Notes under the pieces: model-generated
Told to the model about the DNA's origin: nothing
The model's database searches: none
What the model saw: the letters and a program-made list of their open reading frames with translations, nothing else
Shown here: positions 11,124-29,986 of the stretch, one piece after another
How the letters are laid out: each line of letters begins with the position of its first letter
Numbering within the stretch: the stretch's first letter is position 1
Made by a program: the position numbers and the translations under genes
From: an uncultured Candidatus Poseidoniales archaeon
Lineage (GTDB): Archaea > Thermoplasmatota > Poseidoniia > Poseidoniales > Poseidoniaceae
Length of the DNA stretch: 35,383 nucleotides
Direction of reading: 5' to 3'
Assembly: GCA_905182635.1 (NCBI GenBank)
Contig: CAJJCM010000043.1
Coordinates: 1 to 35,383, forward strand

Positions 11124-14100
11124 ATGAGCCCCCTTACCGATATATCTACCCGTCGCCAAAGTTTACTTCTTACTTTCATCTTATTGTCCTCAGGAATATT
11201 GGGCGTTCTTAACATTCCTAATTCCGATGCCGCCTCAGCCCGTTCAAATGGAAATGAAAGTCTAACAGTTGATGTTCTCAGTGATTATTATGACCGGGGG
11301 TCAAACATTACCCTTTCTGTTATGGCAACAAATTTAGACCCTGTTACAGAATATACATTGGAATATTCACTTTGTATTCTTGAAGGGAACTGGAATTCTG
11401 AGGCTGAAATAATGGAACTGGAATGTGAGTATGAATTCCCACAGATGACTGGTTCCATAGATATTGGTTCAGGAAACATGTTCACATTAACAACGCATTC
11501 AATAGAAGACCCTGGTTGCTGTGGGACAAGTTCATCCTCGAACCTATTTGACAATGGGACTATGAGAGTTGATGTGAGTATTACTTCACAAAACGTCACC
11601 ATTAATTCCGCATTCAGCAATGTCTTTGTTTTAGGAGGGGGTGCTGATGCAGCAGGTATTTCTTCGCCCAATGTACGTGGCCTCTTGGTCGGAATGAGTT
11701 ACGGTGTTCATTCATTCTTCCAATTAGAATTCCCTATACTGGAAATTCTTACATTCACAACGAACTGTTCCCTGTTGAATGCGAACAATGAATCCATCAC
11801 CTCATCCCATTCGACTTGGTCTGGCGGCGGCGACCTTGTCGACCCCTTCTTCCACTTAGAAGTGAGTGTTGCAGGTGATTATCGTCCATATTGTACCCTC
11901 ACACGTGATTTTGATAATGCTGTTTTGGCAACTCAAACAGGGGCGAACTTTTCAGTTTTTGATGCGAACTATACTGGACTTGAAGCGTTCACTGCAGAAA
12001 CAGATGAACAGTATTATGACCACAACTCAGAAGTTTCACTTTATGTTAATCTGACCGATTTGTATCCTGGTACGGAATACGCATTGACATACTCACTTTG
12101 CAATTCCCAAGTTTGGTATTCTGATGAGATCTCCAATTATGTATTCGAATGTGGTAGTGAGGTCGTGTATGGCGTTTCTGATGATGCCTCGACAACTACG
12201 GTAAATGAATCTGAAATCATTGAGATAAATGGAGAAATTATTTTCACACCAACAACTTCCTCTCATTCTGAAGTGATTACCGTTTCAATTCCTGATTGTT
12301 GTGGCGATTCGTATGAGTATTATCCAACGCACGGGATGTTGACGGTTGATTCTCTCCCCAACTCCTCGTTAACATTTGATGTCCATCTCGACATTTTGGG
12401 TGTGGAATTGTTCTCAGAATTATCAAATGTGTTTATACTTGGTGGCGAACTCTTGAGCAGTACTACATCCAATGATCGTAGTGCGATTTTAATCGGAATG
12501 TCTTCAACCGCACAAACGACTTGGTATCTTGATACGAACAATCGTTTTGTTCTTGCTTACACCATTGAGTGTGATTTAGTGAATTCGACAGGGGCAATTA
12601 TCTCAACGCAAAATCAAACTTGGAGTCACAATGGTAGACCAAATGTACACATCACCCAAACCCCAATATCTGCAGGTGAACATCATGTCGAGTGCTCACT
12701 TACTCGTGACTTTGACAATACATTAATGGGGACACAAACAGGTGACACTTTCATGGTCATCGATGCCAATTATACCGGCAATGAACAGCACACAGCAGTA
12801 ACAGATGCAATCTACTATCCTCATAATTCAACCATCCAACTCAGTATCGTTGCAACCAACTTGTATCCCGATACCACCTATACTGTTGCTTATTCATTAT
12901 GTAAACTGGCAACTGAATACCAAGAAAATGGTTTGTTTGAAACCTTTTGCGCTGGAACACCTTGGTGGTATTGGGTCAATGTGGCACCGGAAGACCAAGA
13001 TATAATTTCGGGAGAAGTTGATTTCACACCAACCAGTTCTTCCTACACAGAGGTCATCAGTATCGCCATTCCCGACTGTTGCGGAGATTTCGCAGATAAC
13101 GTGACATGGGAACTTGAAAATGCTTCAATGGCTTTTGAATCGAAACTACTGATTCAAGACGTTCGATTAGATGGTGCAGATGAAGAGAGCAGTTACTTTG
13201 TGATTGGTGGAGAAGTCGTTTCTGCACACATGCTTCACCAACCGCAAATATTGTTGAATATGAATCTTATAATCGACATGAAATGGGAACTGGATCACCG
13301 TAACGAATTCATTCTCTCGTATGTCGAAGTTTGTAATTTAATCGATGAGAGCACACTCCTCGTCATTGATTCTATGACTTCTACTTGGAATCACAGGCCT
13401 GAACATGTCAACACTCAAAATTCAGTCTTTACACCGGCATCGGAAGGCGATTACCGTGTGGAGTGCTCATTGACACGACAAACTGATTCCATGCTGATGG
13501 CGAACTTTAGCAGTTCAACAATCACAGTTCTACCTGAAATGGTTAACCAAGATGATGCTACAGTATCCGCAATTGCGCAGCTTCAACCTGATGGTTGGGG
13601 CTCCGTATCAGTCTCCATGGAAGCCTTAGATGCTGGTCAAAGTTACACCATCGAGTGGGAAGTTTCTGATGTATCATCGGGTATTCTGACATTAATGGAT
13701 TCTGGAGACTTTACCTGGGTCGAAGGTACAGACTCTGTTGAAGAGCATTTATTGGAGTTCAAGGCTTTAGCAGACTCTTCAAATGCATGCATCGCTGTAG
13801 ATTTGTATGCGGTTGACGCATTGATTGATTCTGCAGTTAACAGCGCATTAATTAGTACATTATGTTGGGCACAAAATTCAATATCGGATGTTGATGCAGA
13901 TGGAGTTTATGATAAATTCGACGAATGTCCGACAACTCCGACCAGTAGTATCGTTGATGCGACAGGCTGTTCAGATAGTGACAATGACGGATGGGATGAC
14001 AGCATCGAAATTGAATGTGGTTCTGATACCCAAAACCCAACTTCAATCCCAATTGATTTCGATAGCGATGGTACATGCGACTTACTTGATACCGATGATG

Positions 14101-14648
14101 ATGGTGACGGATTCGCAGACGAAATCGAATACCTTCGTGGAACAAATCCATATGATGTGACTGATTTCCCAACCAATCAATTACCCGTCTGTTCGATTTA
14201 TTACACCCTTGAAGTCGATGGTTTACCGGTCGATATTACAGGCGACACAGTCGTTTCTACTTTGGTCATCGGGGCTTCTTCTGTCCAAGGCTTAGGGACG
14301 GGAATCTCTCCAATTATTACAGTTCCTTCTGGAAGTTATTTCATTGTAGCAGTTTGCCAAGATATTGATAACGACCCGATCACGCTTTCAATCAATGATG
14401 TATCAGTCGGACCAGTCGTCGGAGAAGTAAGTGCTGCTGCAATTATAATGCTCTCTGCCGATGTCGACGAATCAATTGAAGCAACCATTACATGGAGCGA
14501 TGGCACGAATTCAGCAACAACTCTTGTTACAGTTAATCTTGAAAATACGGCTTCTTCTTCGAATGTCCCAGGCTTTACTGCTGCTCTTGGTATTGTTGCA
14601 CTCCTTGGAGCTGCGTTTGTATCTGTTAAAACTAAGAATGAGTTGTAA
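11124..14648 (+). CDS. Giant secreted surface protein: three six-Cys modules, calcium repeats, PGF-CTERM-like anchor
   Basis: The 1174-residue product starts with a signal peptide (hydrophobic LLLTFILLSSGILGVL, residues about 14-29). Three related modules follow, at about 65-290, 300-560 and 565-805. Each has YSLC (C84, C326, C593), a CC pair (132/133, 392/393, 652/653; IPDCCGD in modules 2 and 3) and C(S/T)LTR (C257, C524, C781). A partial fourth unit follows at 806-900. Residues about 920-1015 hold thrombospondin type 3-like, Asp-rich calcium repeats (DVDADGVYDKFDECP, DSDNDGWDD, DTDDDGDGFADE). The C-terminus has PGF at 1149-1151, a hydrophobic helix and KTKNEL, matching the PGF-CTERM plan for archaeosortase processing and lipid attachment. 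The many N-x-S/T sequons fit a glycosylated surface protein. Its ligand is unknown. Confidence 0.85.
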   Translation: MSPLTDISTRRQSLLLTFILLSSGILGVLNIPNSDAASARSNGNESLTVDVLSDYYDRGSNITLSVMATNLDPVTEYTLEYSLCILEGNWNSEAEIMELECEYEFPQMTGSIDIGSGNMFTLTTHSIEDPGCCGTSSSSNLFDNGTMRVDVSITSQNVTINSAFSNVFVLGGGADAAGISSPNVRGLLVGMSYGVHSFFQLEFPILEILTFTTNCSLLNANNESITSSHSTWSGGGDLVDPFFHLEVSVAGDYRPYCTLTRDFDNAVLATQTGANFSVFDANYTGLEAFTAETDEQYYDHNSEVSLYVNLTDLYPGTEYALTYSLCNSQVWYSDEISNYVFECGSEVVYGVSDDASTTTVNESEIIEINGEIIFTPTTSSHSEVITVSIPDCCGDSYEYYPTHGMLTVDSLPNSSLTFDVHLDILGVELFSELSNVFILGGELLSSTTSNDRSAILIGMSSTAQTTWYLDTNNRFVLAYTIECDLVNSTGAIISTQNQTWSHNGRPNVHITQTPISAGEHHVECSLTRDFDNTLMGTQTGDTFMVIDANYTGNEQHTAVTDAIYYPHNSTIQLSIVATNLYPDTTYTVAYSLCKLATEYQENGLFETFCAGTPWWYWVNVAPEDQDIISGEVDFTPTSSSYTEVISIAIPDCCGDFADNVTWELENASMAFESKLLIQDVRLDGADEESSYFVIGGEVVSAHMLHQPQILLNMNLIIDMKWELDHRNEFILSYVEVCNLIDESTLLVIDSMTSTWNHRPEHVNTQNSVFTPASEGDYRVECSLTRQTDSMLMANFSSSTITVLPEMVNQDDATVSAIAQLQPDGWGSVSVSMEALDAGQSYTIEWEVSDVSSGILTLMDSGDFTWVEGTDSVEEHLLEFKALADSSNACIAVDLYAVDALIDSAVNSALISTLCWAQNSISDVDADGVYDKFDECPTTPTSSIVDATGCSDSDNDGWDDSIEIECGSDTQNPTSIPIDFDSDGTCDLLDTDDDGDGFADEIEYLRGTNPYDVTDFPTNQLPVCSIYYTLEVDGLPVDITGDTVVSTLVIGASSVQGLGTGISPIITVPSGSYFIVAVCQDIDNDPITLSINDVSVGPVVGEVSAAAIIMLSADVDESIEATITWSDGTNSATTLVTVNLENTASSSNVPGFTAALGIVALLGAAFVSVKTKNEL
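11315..13530 (+). repeat. Three tandem six-cysteine protein modules
   Basis: The coding sequence repeats a module three times with conserved landmarks: YSLC codons at 11364, 12090 and 12891; the CC pair at 11517, 12297 and 13077; and the C(S/T)LTR cysteine at 11892, 12693 and 13464. Spacing between copies is about 240 and 267 residues. DNA identity between copies is low, so the duplications are old. Confidence 0.75.
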
Positions 14649-25854: not shown

Positions 25855-28578
25855 TCACTCCTTAAATTGGAATGCATCTGCTGATGGGGGTGCTGTTGGC
25901 CTTTGCGAATCTGGTTCTTCAGTTTCCATGAAGTGCTGAGTTTGGTCTTCAAAAACATCTAATTTCATACCCTCAGACGTTGCTTTTTGCCTTTGGAAGA
26001 AGTTTATTCCTCCAGCAACCAACCCAACGAGAATGAGGACTCTAAGAATTAAATCAAACCAAGAGTCCATGTTGGCATTTCCGGGAAAGGGGTCATGAGC
26101 ATTGGCTATTCCATCACCATCAGAGTCGTATTGTGCTTCGGCATCAAAAGGGAATAAGTCGGTGTTATCACCCATGCCATCACCATCTGAATCGAGCCAT
26201 TCAAAGGCACTTGTGGGGAATATGTCGGCGTTGTCTCCGACGCCATCAAAATCTTGGTCATAACATTCCAGCGAATTATTTGGCCATACATCGATGTTAT
26301 CTCCGCAACCGTCCTGATCGGTATCAAGCCATTCTGTAGCATCAAGTGGGAAGACATCAGAATTGTCACCTACACCATCACCATCCGTATCGTTCCATTC
26401 ACTTGAATCAAAGGGAAAGAAGTCACGGTTATCGCCATATGTATCGTTATCTCTGTCAGCCCAATCACTCCCATCATCTGGAAACAGGTCTGAAAAGTCA
26501 CCGACTGAATCGTTATCTCGGTCACTCCACTCATTTTCATCAAGTGGAAATGCATCAACGGTATCACCAAACCCGTCACCGTCACTGTCAATGCATCCGA
26601 GTGGAATGAATGCATACCCTTCAATCAAAGGACATTCATCTCTATTGTCGCCATAACCATCAGCGTCAGAATCTGCCCATTCGGTACTATCGATTGGGAA
26701 GGCATCGGCATTATTGCCAACACCATCTTCATCGACATCGCTGCAATCCAAGGCATCGAAAGGGAACAGGTCAGTATTATCACCGCATCCGTCGCCATCG
26801 GAATCGAACCATTCGCTTCCATCCAGTGGAAACGCATCATCTCCATCACCATAAAAATCATCATCGGTATCGAAATCTCGTTTGTCGGAACCAATTGCAT
26901 CCTCTTCAGCATTGGTCAAACCATCACCGTCCAAATCCACATCTTCGCTATCATGGCAACCATCACCGTCTAAATCAGCATCATGAACGCCAATCAAACC
27001 TTTTGGACAGTTGTCGATGCTATCTTCAACACCGTCGTTATCGTCATCCAGATCAACTTCATCGCTGCACCCATCGTCATCAAAGTCGAATGATGAGAGA
27101 GAAAATGGACAAGGGTCGACTGAATCATTGAGGCCATCATTATCGGAATCTCTCTGTTCAGCAGAACACCCAACAGCATCGACTGTAGAGCCAAATGGGG
27201 TGCTTGGGCATAGGTCGAAAAGATTATCGACGCCATCTTGGTCTTCATCTTGTTGTTCCCAAGAACACCCTGTAAGATTGGTTGATGCACCAGATAGAGT
27301 CCATGAACACGTGTCATAGATGTTGATAATTCCATCTCCATCGGTATCTGGCTCACCAATACCTTCGGTCGCATATCTTCCGATGAAACGGTGCATGACA
27401 CGAGTTGGATGTGCTTTGTCAAAGAAAAGGTATTCATCGACGTTTGCCACAACAGTGTCTCCGTTGCTGCAAATTGGTAATGGGAGAAGTGAGACTCCAC
27501 CTGAACATGCAGCATCGTGAACATTGGTCAATCCCAGGGCTTCTTTATTTTGCAAAATATCATTGAAAATACTCCACGCATCAATGTAGTGAATCGTAAT
27601 ACCTAATTCAGCTGTCAGATTACTCGCAAGCCCGTCGAGTTTTTGGTTGTAAAGAACGACTTCAGTAGCAATGTTGTTTTGTTGATTTTGAGTTCGACTC
27701 ATCACCTCGGGAGTCATTTCCAATGGCGGGAGATTGGGGAGGAGGAATTCGTCTGCACCTGCTGCTTCGAGTTGACGGATGTGTGATTCCATATTAGCAA
27801 CTATTGTATTTGCATTTGCAGTGCCATAGAGGAAATCATTTCCGCCAGACCATAGGGATACAACGGCGTCCGAAGGAATTGTAGTTTGGACATTCGAGAG
27901 GTAGTTGTTAATTTGAGTCCCGACGTTTGGGAGCAACAAGTAAGAAAAACCCTGTCCAGTTTGAGAACCTCCAAAGGCACGATTATCGCCCGCAGCAGTA
28001 CCAGAACCAATCGTTGTCGTAACTCCATAAGAGTCCGACATGTATTCAAGCCAAACTCGGCCGTTGGAAAAGCGTCCTTGCCAATAAGGTGGAACATCAG
28101 GTACATTGAGTATTGAATTGTAGCCATTTCCCATGTCACTCAATGAATCTCCAAATGCGAGTAAATTGGAAATTGGCGGAAACTGAGCATTCTCAAAGAC
28201 CATGAAATGCTGCTGTTCACTGTTGATGATGTTATTTGAGGCATCAATAATTTCAACGTCGAATCGATAGAAATGAGAGCCGTTGTAAAAATGCTTCAAG
28301 GGCAAATCAAAAGACGTCACTGTTCCACTCGCTTGAAATTGATACGTGCCATTGAGAATGACAGCATCGTTTTCATCATATAAATTCCAGTGTGCGAAAA
28401 GGTCAACACTGTACGGAGCATTGGTAATCTCTACGCTAATAATAACCGTTTCATTTGAGAGCCAATCATACTTGGCAATGGAGAGATTTGTGCTTGCAGC
28501 CCTGCCTTCTGCTTGGACGAGACCTGTTGCACTCTGCAGCAATATCATCAGAATAAGGAAAAATACCGCCTTGCGCAC
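25855..28578 (-). CDS. Surface GDSL/SGNH esterase with long calcium-repeat stalk and C-terminal membrane helix
   Basis: The signal peptide is RKAVFFLILMILLQSATGLVQA; GTG 28578 is preferred because starts farther upstream overlap srp54 and delay the hydrophobic core. After a beta-rich domain of about 110 residues comes a GDSL esterase domain: FGDSLSDMGN with nucleophile S145, the block II glycine in FGGSQTGQG, WSGGNDF (Asn), and FDKAHPT with catalytic Asp/His. Next come about 15 Asp-rich thrombospondin type 3-like units. The last 11 or so have a regular 22-residue form, FPxDxxEWxDxDxDGxGDNxD. A helix near WFDLILRVLILVGLVAGG anchors the end, followed by a short cytoplasmic tail. It probably cleaves lipids or acylated polymers outside the cell. 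There is no PGF motif, unlike the 1174-residue protein. Confidence 0.88.
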   Translation of the reverse strand: MRKAVFFLILMILLQSATGLVQAEGRAASTNLSIAKYDWLSNETVIISVEITNAPYSVDLFAHWNLYDENDAVILNGTYQFQASGTVTSFDLPLKHFYNGSHFYRFDVEIIDASNNIINSEQQHFMVFENAQFPPISNLLAFGDSLSDMGNGYNSILNVPDVPPYWQGRFSNGRVWLEYMSDSYGVTTTIGSGTAAGDNRAFGGSQTGQGFSYLLLPNVGTQINNYLSNVQTTIPSDAVVSLWSGGNDFLYGTANANTIVANMESHIRQLEAAGADEFLLPNLPPLEMTPEVMSRTQNQQNNIATEVVLYNQKLDGLASNLTAELGITIHYIDAWSIFNDILQNKEALGLTNVHDAACSGGVSLLPLPICSNGDTVVANVDEYLFFDKAHPTRVMHRFIGRYATEGIGEPDTDGDGIINIYDTCSWTLSGASTNLTGCSWEQQDEDQDGVDNLFDLCPSTPFGSTVDAVGCSAEQRDSDNDGLNDSVDPCPFSLSSFDFDDDGCSDEVDLDDDNDGVEDSIDNCPKGLIGVHDADLDGDGCHDSEDVDLDGDGLTNAEEDAIGSDKRDFDTDDDFYGDGDDAFPLDGSEWFDSDGDGCGDNTDLFPFDALDCSDVDEDGVGNNADAFPIDSTEWADSDADGYGDNRDECPLIEGYAFIPLGCIDSDGDGFGDTVDAFPLDENEWSDRDNDSVGDFSDLFPDDGSDWADRDNDTYGDNRDFFPFDSSEWNDTDGDGVGDNSDVFPLDATEWLDTDQDGCGDNIDVWPNNSLECYDQDFDGVGDNADIFPTSAFEWLDSDGDGMGDNTDLFPFDAEAQYDSDGDGIANAHDPFPGNANMDSWFDLILRVLILVGLVAGGINFFQRQKATSEGMKLDVFEDQTQHFMETEEPDSQRPTAPPSADAFQFKE
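26080..27360 (-). repeat. Coding tandem repeats of thrombospondin type 3-like calcium units
   Basis: Within the esterase gene, DxDxDG units recur. From about 26850 down to 26080 they keep a 22-residue (66-base) period with FP, EW and GDN landmarks. Unit-to-unit DNA identity is moderate, so the order is stable enough to read. Earlier units (to about 27360) are less regular and carry CP pairs that could form disulfides. Aspartates at alternate positions bind calcium in this family. Confidence 0.85.
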
Positions 28579-28615
28579 AAACTGACCACAGGCTGTAAGT
28601 TGAAAGCAGTTCGCC

Positions 28616-29986
28616 TCACATTCCGAATGATGAAGGGTCCATGTCCATATCACCATCTTTCATCATTTTTCGCATTTGCTTGTTGAGTTTTCTGTTGCCG
28701 CCCATACCTTTCATCATCTTGCGAGAACGGTTCCATTGGGCGATGAGTTCACGAACATCTTTTTCTCGAACTCCAGAACCTCGTGCCACACGACGAATTC
28801 GGTCTGCTTTGATTTTGGCAGGTTCATTCTTTTCCCAAGCAGTCATACTGTCCATGATGGTTCGGTATCGGTCGAGATTTCCTTGCATGTCTGCTTTTTG
28901 ACTTTTCGACATCGCACCCATTCCTCCAAGCATATTTCCTGGGAGGAACGACATCAGTTTGTCAATTGTACCAACTTTTGACATCATTTCCATCTGTTTA
29001 TACATGTCGTTGAGGGTGAATCGGCCACTCATCAATCGTTGGGTGAGCCGCATAGTTTCTTCTTCATCCATGTCATCCGGTGCCAGGTCGATGAGCCCCT
29101 GTATGTCACCCATTCCAAGGAGACGAGAGATAAATCGGTCCGATTCGAATTTCTCCAAATCAGAAACATTTTCTCCAGTTCCGATGTGAACAATAGGCGC
29201 TCCTGTAGCTGCAACGGCGGATAATGCGCCACCGCCTCTTGCCGTTCCGTCAAGTTTCGTGATGACAATACCAGTAACGCCGGCAAGTGAATGGAACGAC
29301 GCTGCCACTGGTCCAGCAGCTTGACCGACTTGAGCATCGATGACAAGCCAACGTTCGCTTGCTCGAGTGATCGATGAAATTTGTTCTAATTCATCAACCA
29401 GTTCTTGGTCAAGTTGGTGGCGTCCTGCTGTATCTACAATGATTAAATCAGCAGCAGAACATGCTGCAAGGCCGTTTCGAACGATGGTTGGTGCATCTTT
29501 GGTATCGGGTTCACCATACACTTGAACGGTAGAATCTTCCAGCAATTGCGTCAACTGAGCATAGGCTCCAGGTCGATGCACGTCAGCCTCAATTACTGCG
29601 ACACGAAGGCCATGTTTACGCCGGTACCACTCTGCTAATTTTGCCGTTGTAGTGGTTTTACCTTGACCATACAGTCCGACAAGAAGTAAGGTTGCACCAT
29701 GGGGTTGAAATTGATGAGCGGGACCAAGCATTCGAACTAATTCGGTGTAGAGGATATTCATTGCATGCGTTTGCAAAGTGATTCCTGGTCGAGTTTCATC
29801 TTCTCGAAGACGCGCCTCAAGTTTCTCAACCAATTCCTTTGTTTGACGAACGTTGAAATCTGCTTCTTGTAATGCTCGACGAAGGCTACGGGTCATTTCC
29901 CGAAGTTCTTCTTCATCTAATTTACGTTTATTCTTGAGCAACCCAATGGAGCGAAAAATACCCTGTGAGAGGCCTTCGAGTGCCAT
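28616..29986 (-). CDS. srp54: Signal recognition particle GTPase SRP54
   Basis: SRP54 binds signal sequences and 7S RNA and, with FtsY, delivers ribosomes to the translocon. The domain order is normal: an N domain (1-90), then a G domain with G1 GLYGQGKTTTTAKLA (104-118), IEADVHRPGAYAQL, DTAGRHQLD, TKLDGTARGGGALS and HIGTGENVSDLEKF. The Met-rich M domain follows (MGDIQGLIDL, LNDMYKQMEMMSKVG, RSRKMMKGMGG) and ends DPSSFGM. Length of 456 residues is typical. G1 has GQGKTT where most SRP54 have GSGKTT or GSGKTTT. It lies 54 bases after the ArsA-like gene and 37 before the esterase, all on the minus strand. Confidence 0.97.
   Translation of the reverse strand: MALEGLSQGIFRSIGLLKNKRKLDEEELREMTRSLRRALQEADFNVRQTKELVEKLEARLREDETRPGITLQTHAMNILYTELVRMLGPAHQFQPHGATLLLVGLYGQGKTTTTAKLAEWYRRKHGLRVAVIEADVHRPGAYAQLTQLLEDSTVQVYGEPDTKDAPTIVRNGLAACSAADLIIVDTAGRHQLDQELVDELEQISSITRASERWLVIDAQVGQAAGPVAASFHSLAGVTGIVITKLDGTARGGGALSAVAATGAPIVHIGTGENVSDLEKFESDRFISRLLGMGDIQGLIDLAPDDMDEEETMRLTQRLMSGRFTLNDMYKQMEMMSKVGTIDKLMSFLPGNMLGGMGAMSKSQKADMQGNLDRYRTIMDSMTAWEKNEPAKIKADRIRRVARGSGVREKDVRELIAQWNRSRKMMKGMGGNRKLNKQMRKMMKDGDMDMDPSSFGM

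Follow-up and report, generated by a model that had tools for sequence, protein, structure and literature searches.

What kind of protein is encoded by the long open reading frame at 11124-14648 of the window (the whole 35,383-nucleotide stretch of DNA analysed, from a Candidatus Poseidoniales archaeon), and is the cysteine-rich module that it carries three times a new domain? No archaea are more abundant in the surface ocean than the Poseidoniales, which are uncultured. The original prediction, made from the DNA letters, described three copies of a novel six-cysteine module, each with cysteines enough for three disulfides, in an extracellular stalk or adhesin with calcium repeats and a PGF-CTERM-like tail. 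The frame and every motif named there are present, and frames of ~1190-1220 codons occur in the same place in at least seven congeneric genomes. The features are as follows:

11124-14648, forward strand: surface protein ORF of 1174 aa, an open frame with ATG; orthologs equal in length at the same site
11124-11231, forward strand: putative signal peptide, aa 1-36 (RR, hydrophobic stretch, small residues; this type is kept in orthologs), with cleavage predicted near SDAA
11253-11981, forward strand: module 1, aa 44-286; Ig-like A (C84, C101, CC132-133) and B (C215, C257)
11517-11522, forward strand: CC pair of module 1, E-F loop of A
11982-12782, forward strand: module 2, aa 287-553, the part modelled; Ig-like A (C326, C343, CC392-393) and B (C483, C524)
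12297-12302, forward strand: CC pair of module 2, E-F loop of A
12783-13547, forward strand: module 3, aa 554-808; Ig-like A (C593, C609, CC652-653) and B (C737, C781)
13077-13082, forward strand: CC pair of module 3, E-F loop of A
13548-13874, forward strand: unit 4, aa 809-917, a lone A-like beta domain by profile match to subdomain A, with its own pair C889, C914
13884-14174, forward strand: thrombospondin type 3-like calcium repeats, aa 921-1017
14178-14543, forward strand: membrane-proximal beta-like domain, aa 1019-1140, with one Cys pair (CSIYYTLE ... AVCQD), as read from the sequence
14556-14645, forward strand: PGF-CTERM tail, aa 1145-1174 (PGF, hydrophobic stretch, basic end)

The three modules proved to be homologous end to end with six cysteines each, at 37% (modules 1 and 2), 28% (1 and 3) and 40% (2 and 3) identity and BLASTP E-values of 6e-33, 6e-18 and 3e-45, respectively, far beyond chance. 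In modules 1/2/3, the YSLC cysteine (C1) lies at aa 84/326/593 and is followed by C2 (aa 101/343/609), which is present in every module as predicted but at a spacing of 16-17 rather than about 20 residues. The CC pair comes next (PGCCG in module 1, IPDCCGD in modules 2 and 3), then C5 at aa 215/483/737, ~15-17 residues ahead of a TWS/TWN segment, and C6 in C(S/T)LTR at aa 257/524/781. At the DNA level, modules 1 and 2 share no similarity, modules 2 and 3 a single 79-base stretch, and tandem repeat detection in the gene finds none; this near-absence of DNA similarity indicates that the module duplications are old.

That the modules are without a recognised sequence domain also held. Searches of Pfam, NCBIfam and PDB sequences with the single protein gave nothing credible within the modules, and Pfam and PDB searches with a 31-row module alignment left them equally without a credible match. 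The Pfam hits AGS_C (E 2.6e-4) and Phage_tail_NK (E 0.003) each came from one of the 31 members and were taken as chance. A weak likeness of subdomain A to the T-Q ester bond domain (PF18202; E 0.039-0.048), seen in only three of 31 copies, was likewise set aside, at 14.5 bits against a cut-off of 23.8.

The fold is another matter. AlphaFold2 modelling of module 2 with 30 aligned modules gave an all-beta structure (pLDDT 89, pTM 0.78), whose strand order fits two A-B-C-C'-E-F-G sandwiches; the strand letters here are our reading of DSSP order and not a measured topology. Judged by this model, a pair of Ig-like sandwiches in tandem, sharing the cysteines four to two, describes each module better than the single novel six-cysteine domain first proposed. 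Subdomain A (~130-155 aa) holds C1, C2 and CC and ends in NVFxLGG; subdomain B (~108 aa) contains C5, TWSHNG and C(S/T)LTR, in this order. Profile comparison revealed no sequence similarity between A and B, so that a duplication of A into B is unsupported. In the modelled A domain, strand C (33-47) carries C1, the adjacent strand C' (52-60) carries C2, and the loop linking strands E (95-102) and F (128-138), in which there are also two short strands, carries CC (106-107); in the B domain, strands C (193-201) and F (232-242) carry C5 and C6, respectively. Strands C and F adjoin in the Ig-like fold.

Comparison with Ig-like and cohesin-like folds had been suggested as a check on the original prediction. 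Foldseek against the PDB returned tandem Ig-like proteins (E 7e-9 to 2e-6, 7-14% identity, TM about 0.2-0.4, the low TM being partly due to differing inter-domain angles), including transglutaminase beta-barrels, PECAM-1 IgL1-2, complement C3, the Nitrosopumilus S-layer structure 8c8k and arrestin/VPS26 double sandwiches. No cohesin family appeared in the Pfam scans and none among the best 50 Foldseek matches, and a viral fold library gave generic beta-sandwich matches only. As far as DSSP order defines topology, the modules thus belong to the seven-strand Greek-key Ig-like beta-sandwich superfamily, and their fold class is therefore already known. They are not canonical I- or V-set domains, which have a disulfide between strands B and F and a Trp in strand C: by strand order, C5 lies on the third (C-type) strand and C6 on the sixth (F), C1 and C2 are on neighbouring strands, and no Pfam Ig model matches. 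Tandem Ig-like pairs in the PDB, among them complement MG domains, likewise consist of two successive beta-sandwiches, from which the present modules differ in placing their cysteines, by the model, on C/C' (A) and C/F (B) and in having CC in the E-F loop.

How the six cysteines pair can be approached by counting them across the family. All 28 full-length modules with CC contain exactly six cysteines and all 15 without it exactly four (n=43, though many of these modules are related and do not represent 43 independent events); none has three or five. Six per copy, as predicted, therefore describes all three modules in the window and not the distant copies, which have four. This parity indicates that the two CC cysteines are gained or lost as a unit. 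Within the genus, the six cysteines are among the invariant columns, except in module 1 of the most divergent ortholog (L047), which lacks CC and retains C1 and C2 at their normal spacing. These counts make it likely that C1-C2 and C5-C6 are structural disulfides, and the joint gain and loss of CC suggests that the pair probably forms a vicinal disulfide. An A domain rewired and cross-braced in its six-cysteine form, with CC bonded to C1 and C2 or cross-linking neighbouring chains, is possible and would draw on the C1-C2 spacing, which differs among four-cysteine copies (roughly 5 to 20 residues) and therefore leaves the C1-C2 geometry not strictly fixed, and on the location of CC within a loop that could be exposed to a partner. 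We nonetheless regard it as the less probable arrangement, given that every full-length copy without CC retains C1, a second cysteine nearby, C5 and C6, that loss of CC in the ortholog module leaves C1-C2 spacing unchanged, and that the CC cysteines come and go together. As for a possible catalyst, VKOR, an extracytoplasmic disulfide-forming enzyme, scores over cut-off in 15 of 20 relatives as well as in the genome from which the window comes; DsbB is absent and DsbD gave weak matches only.

The position of CC is also where other members of the family vary. Two homologues from genus g2 belong to the same module family by profile and share the C-terminal half of the window protein, but their A domain has an LDL receptor class A (LDLa)-like insert, seemingly at the place taken by the CC loop in the window protein:

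L055 3710-7861, forward strand: surface protein with LDLa-like insert (PF00057, E 1.5e-9, over cut-off)
L111 2524-6621, forward strand: surface protein with LDLa-like insert (PF00057, E 2.3e-4, just under cut-off)

Inspection of the sequences by eye places the insert between strands E and F of A, at the CC position. A speculative reading, to which we give rather little weight, is that A is an Ig-like scaffold with an exchangeable apical E-F loop (a plain DPG, a vicinal-disulfide CC loop or an LDLa-type calcium insert), an archaeal display scaffold in which binding specificity, or a redox- or force-sensitive switch based on the vicinal bond, is swapped between lineages while the modules are duplicated and homogenised.

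Downstream of the modules, unit 4 had been taken for a degenerate, cysteine-free fourth copy. It is instead a lone A-like domain, matching subdomain A in hhalign (probability 88%, P 3e-6, over 25 columns covering strands B-C), and its own Cys pair is kept in 17 of 18 among the homologues listed. The eight cysteines outside the modules are spread over unit 4, the stretch of calcium repeats and the membrane-proximal domain, and distant homologues have this last domain too, with both of its cysteines. The predicted calcium repeats are plain as a DxDxDGxxDxxD motif at aa 921-1017, a segment that also matches TSP3 regions of other proteins, though the Pfam matches to TSP3_bac (two stretches, E 0.0063) and to TSP_3 (E 0.016) stay below the cut-offs. 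TSP3-like repeats recur elsewhere in the window: a second secreted-looking protein of 933 aa (25855-28656, reverse strand) has a GDSL/SGNH-esterase-like part (GDSLSDMG), about a dozen such repeats and then a C-terminal membrane segment.

An extracellular location with a PGF-CTERM anchor is supported. The tail matches TIGR04126 (E 7.4e-5; 22.3 bits, just under the cut-off of 24.5) and PF18204 (16.5 bits against 18.8), its PGF, hydrophobic segment and basic C-terminus are all visible, and PGF is present in all orthologs listed. A search for ArtA (TIGR04125) in 20 relatives gave a match over cut-off in every one. The MAG that contains the window is 66% complete and has only a weak, partial exosortase/archaeosortase-like match below cut-off, at G000:C66:10135-10272; similar weak second matches occur beside a full ArtA in several relatives. 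The protein is strongly acidic (172 Asp+Glu against 25 Lys+Arg), and from residue 44 to the tail all 18 N-glycosylation sequons sit in modules (18 against 10.9 +/- 2.9 in shuffles, P 0.014) and none in the stalk.

In haloarchaea, PGF-CTERM S-layer proteins with Ig-like domains are anchored via ArtA (PMC8875312). With archaeal proteins of this type the window protein has in common the signal peptide, the Ig-like array, sequons, the tail of PGF, transmembrane segment and basic end, and ArtA in the lineage; it differs from the haloarchaeal S-layer glycoprotein type in being accessory, in its six-cysteine A-B modules and TSP3 spacer, and in a module family without a match. A structural role in an S-layer or matrix, instead of adhesion, is nevertheless worth weighing, since Ig-like arrays, PGF-CTERM and sequons are typical of archaeal S-layer glycoproteins (PMC8875312) and 8c8k is among the fold matches. 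The distribution of the gene argues against it.

The gene lies between g9999 and SDR in a conserved run (HADH, g9999, SDR, g15533, MFS, OPT), and the site is filled by the same gene in eight genomes, the window's included; in a ninth (G048), the gene is beside g9999 and the best SDR match is on another contig. In 13 congeners the site is empty and the neighbours adjoin directly, with gaps of 47-150 bp (one of the 13, G066, lacks g9999 too). On the flanking-gene tree, the filled genomes need three changes, a value that none of 500 shuffles reached, and the gene was probably gained once and lost twice, although the fork joining the window with empty genomes is weakly supported. Moreover, the protein is 54-56% identical to most of its orthologs, compared with 69-97% for the flanking genes there. 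Clean presence/absence and divergence beyond that of the flanking genes thus mark it as a surface gene that is accessory and evolves fast. Universal presence in the lineage would be expected of a main S-layer protein; with 13 clean empty sites, and the family in just 32 of the 319 genomes of the order, this gene is dispensable, which makes a main S-layer role unlikely, and we rate a structural S-layer or matrix function as quite improbable.

Two genomes stand apart at this site. In G053 (L157), roughly 6 kb that include large helicase-like ORFs (991 and 632 aa) stand in place of the surface gene; this is perhaps a general insertion site. In G080 (L047), the copy is 38% identical to that of the window, the flanking genes group this genome beside G043 (55%) and g9999 is missing; replacement of the copy by recombination is possible.

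Fast divergence with clean presence/absence is usual for surface contact proteins. The same pattern could arise if viruses used the protein as a receptor or were misled by it as a decoy, so that virus pressure and not adhesion decided whether it is kept: presence/absence at a single site, two losses inferred close to the window genome, rapid divergence relative to the neighbours, and near-identical tandem modules in paralogs, which suggest frequent recombination, would all suit it. However, this pattern fits adhesins equally, viral contigs contain no homologue and nothing links the protein to viruses. We consider such a receptor or decoy role unlikely, though compatible with the adhesin reading that we prefer.

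With somewhat more confidence than doubt, we thus propose that the gene encodes an archaeosortase-processed single-pass surface protein of Poseidoniaceae, in which disulfide-braced Ig-like pairs with vicinal CC would form a rod, stiff and N-glycosylated, that stands on a TSP3 spacer stiffened by calcium and is held by an ArtA-dependent lipid anchor, and which would act as a putative adhesin or recognition protein. After secretion, one disulfide would form per sandwich (C1-C2 in A, C5-C6 in B) and the vicinal CC disulfide would rigidify the E-F loop of each A domain; the rod of seven Ig-like domains would project from the cell on its spacer, ArtA would cut the tail and the lipid anchor would be attached, leaving exposed A-domain loops that may touch a particle, cell or polymer. 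A three-module AlphaFold model was poor (pLDDT 57) and not usable, and the rod shape is therefore one that we only infer. The stalk or adhesin role first predicted remains plausible, and genes for adhesion and of thrombospondin type have been noted as common across Poseidoniales (PMC6461757). The protein bears on how these archaea attach to particles or algae, as a defined surface protein that is lineage-restricted and optional and whose structure (Ig A, Ig B, CC loop) can be put to the test. Its clean filled or empty site is usable for population surveys across size fractions, and one of its loops allows a comparison of the CC, LDLa and plain forms.

The search of Poseidoniales genomes suggested with the original prediction found the family in these 32 genomes (~10%); all that match the module profile belong to the same family as the window, and they come from seven of 22 genera. 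Extending it to a sample of the phylum added only two weak matches, a short one in the sister family (E 3.8e-4), so that the family is essentially all Poseidoniaceae, and one in a further f1 genome. A collection scan found nothing with the single protein and ten loci with the alignment as query, and the named matching records are Poseidoniaceae or Marine Group II MAGs plus one isolate assembly, AG-333-I22. The family is thus lineage-restricted and without match in the databases searched, and its overall Ig-like PGF-CTERM design is familiar: the module layout is new and the CC loop is an optional feature of interest, the kind of surface protein is known.

Full orthologs always have three modules. 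Four-cysteine paralogs in Poseidoniaceae (e.g. L051, L054, L058) share the A-B module, unit 4, TSP3 and tail, but lack CC, and their adjacent modules are 83-91% identical in DNA, compared with little or no such similarity between the modules of the window protein. The four-cysteine and related paralogs comprise L050, L051, L054 and L058 together with the contig-end loci L048, L049, L052, L053, L105-L109 and L113-L121; that contig ends cut nearly all of them suggests that longer arrays of near-identical modules were broken by short-read assembly. A related protein at L104 (2129-4612, reverse strand) contains an internal direct duplication of 337 bp whose copies are 98.8% identical.
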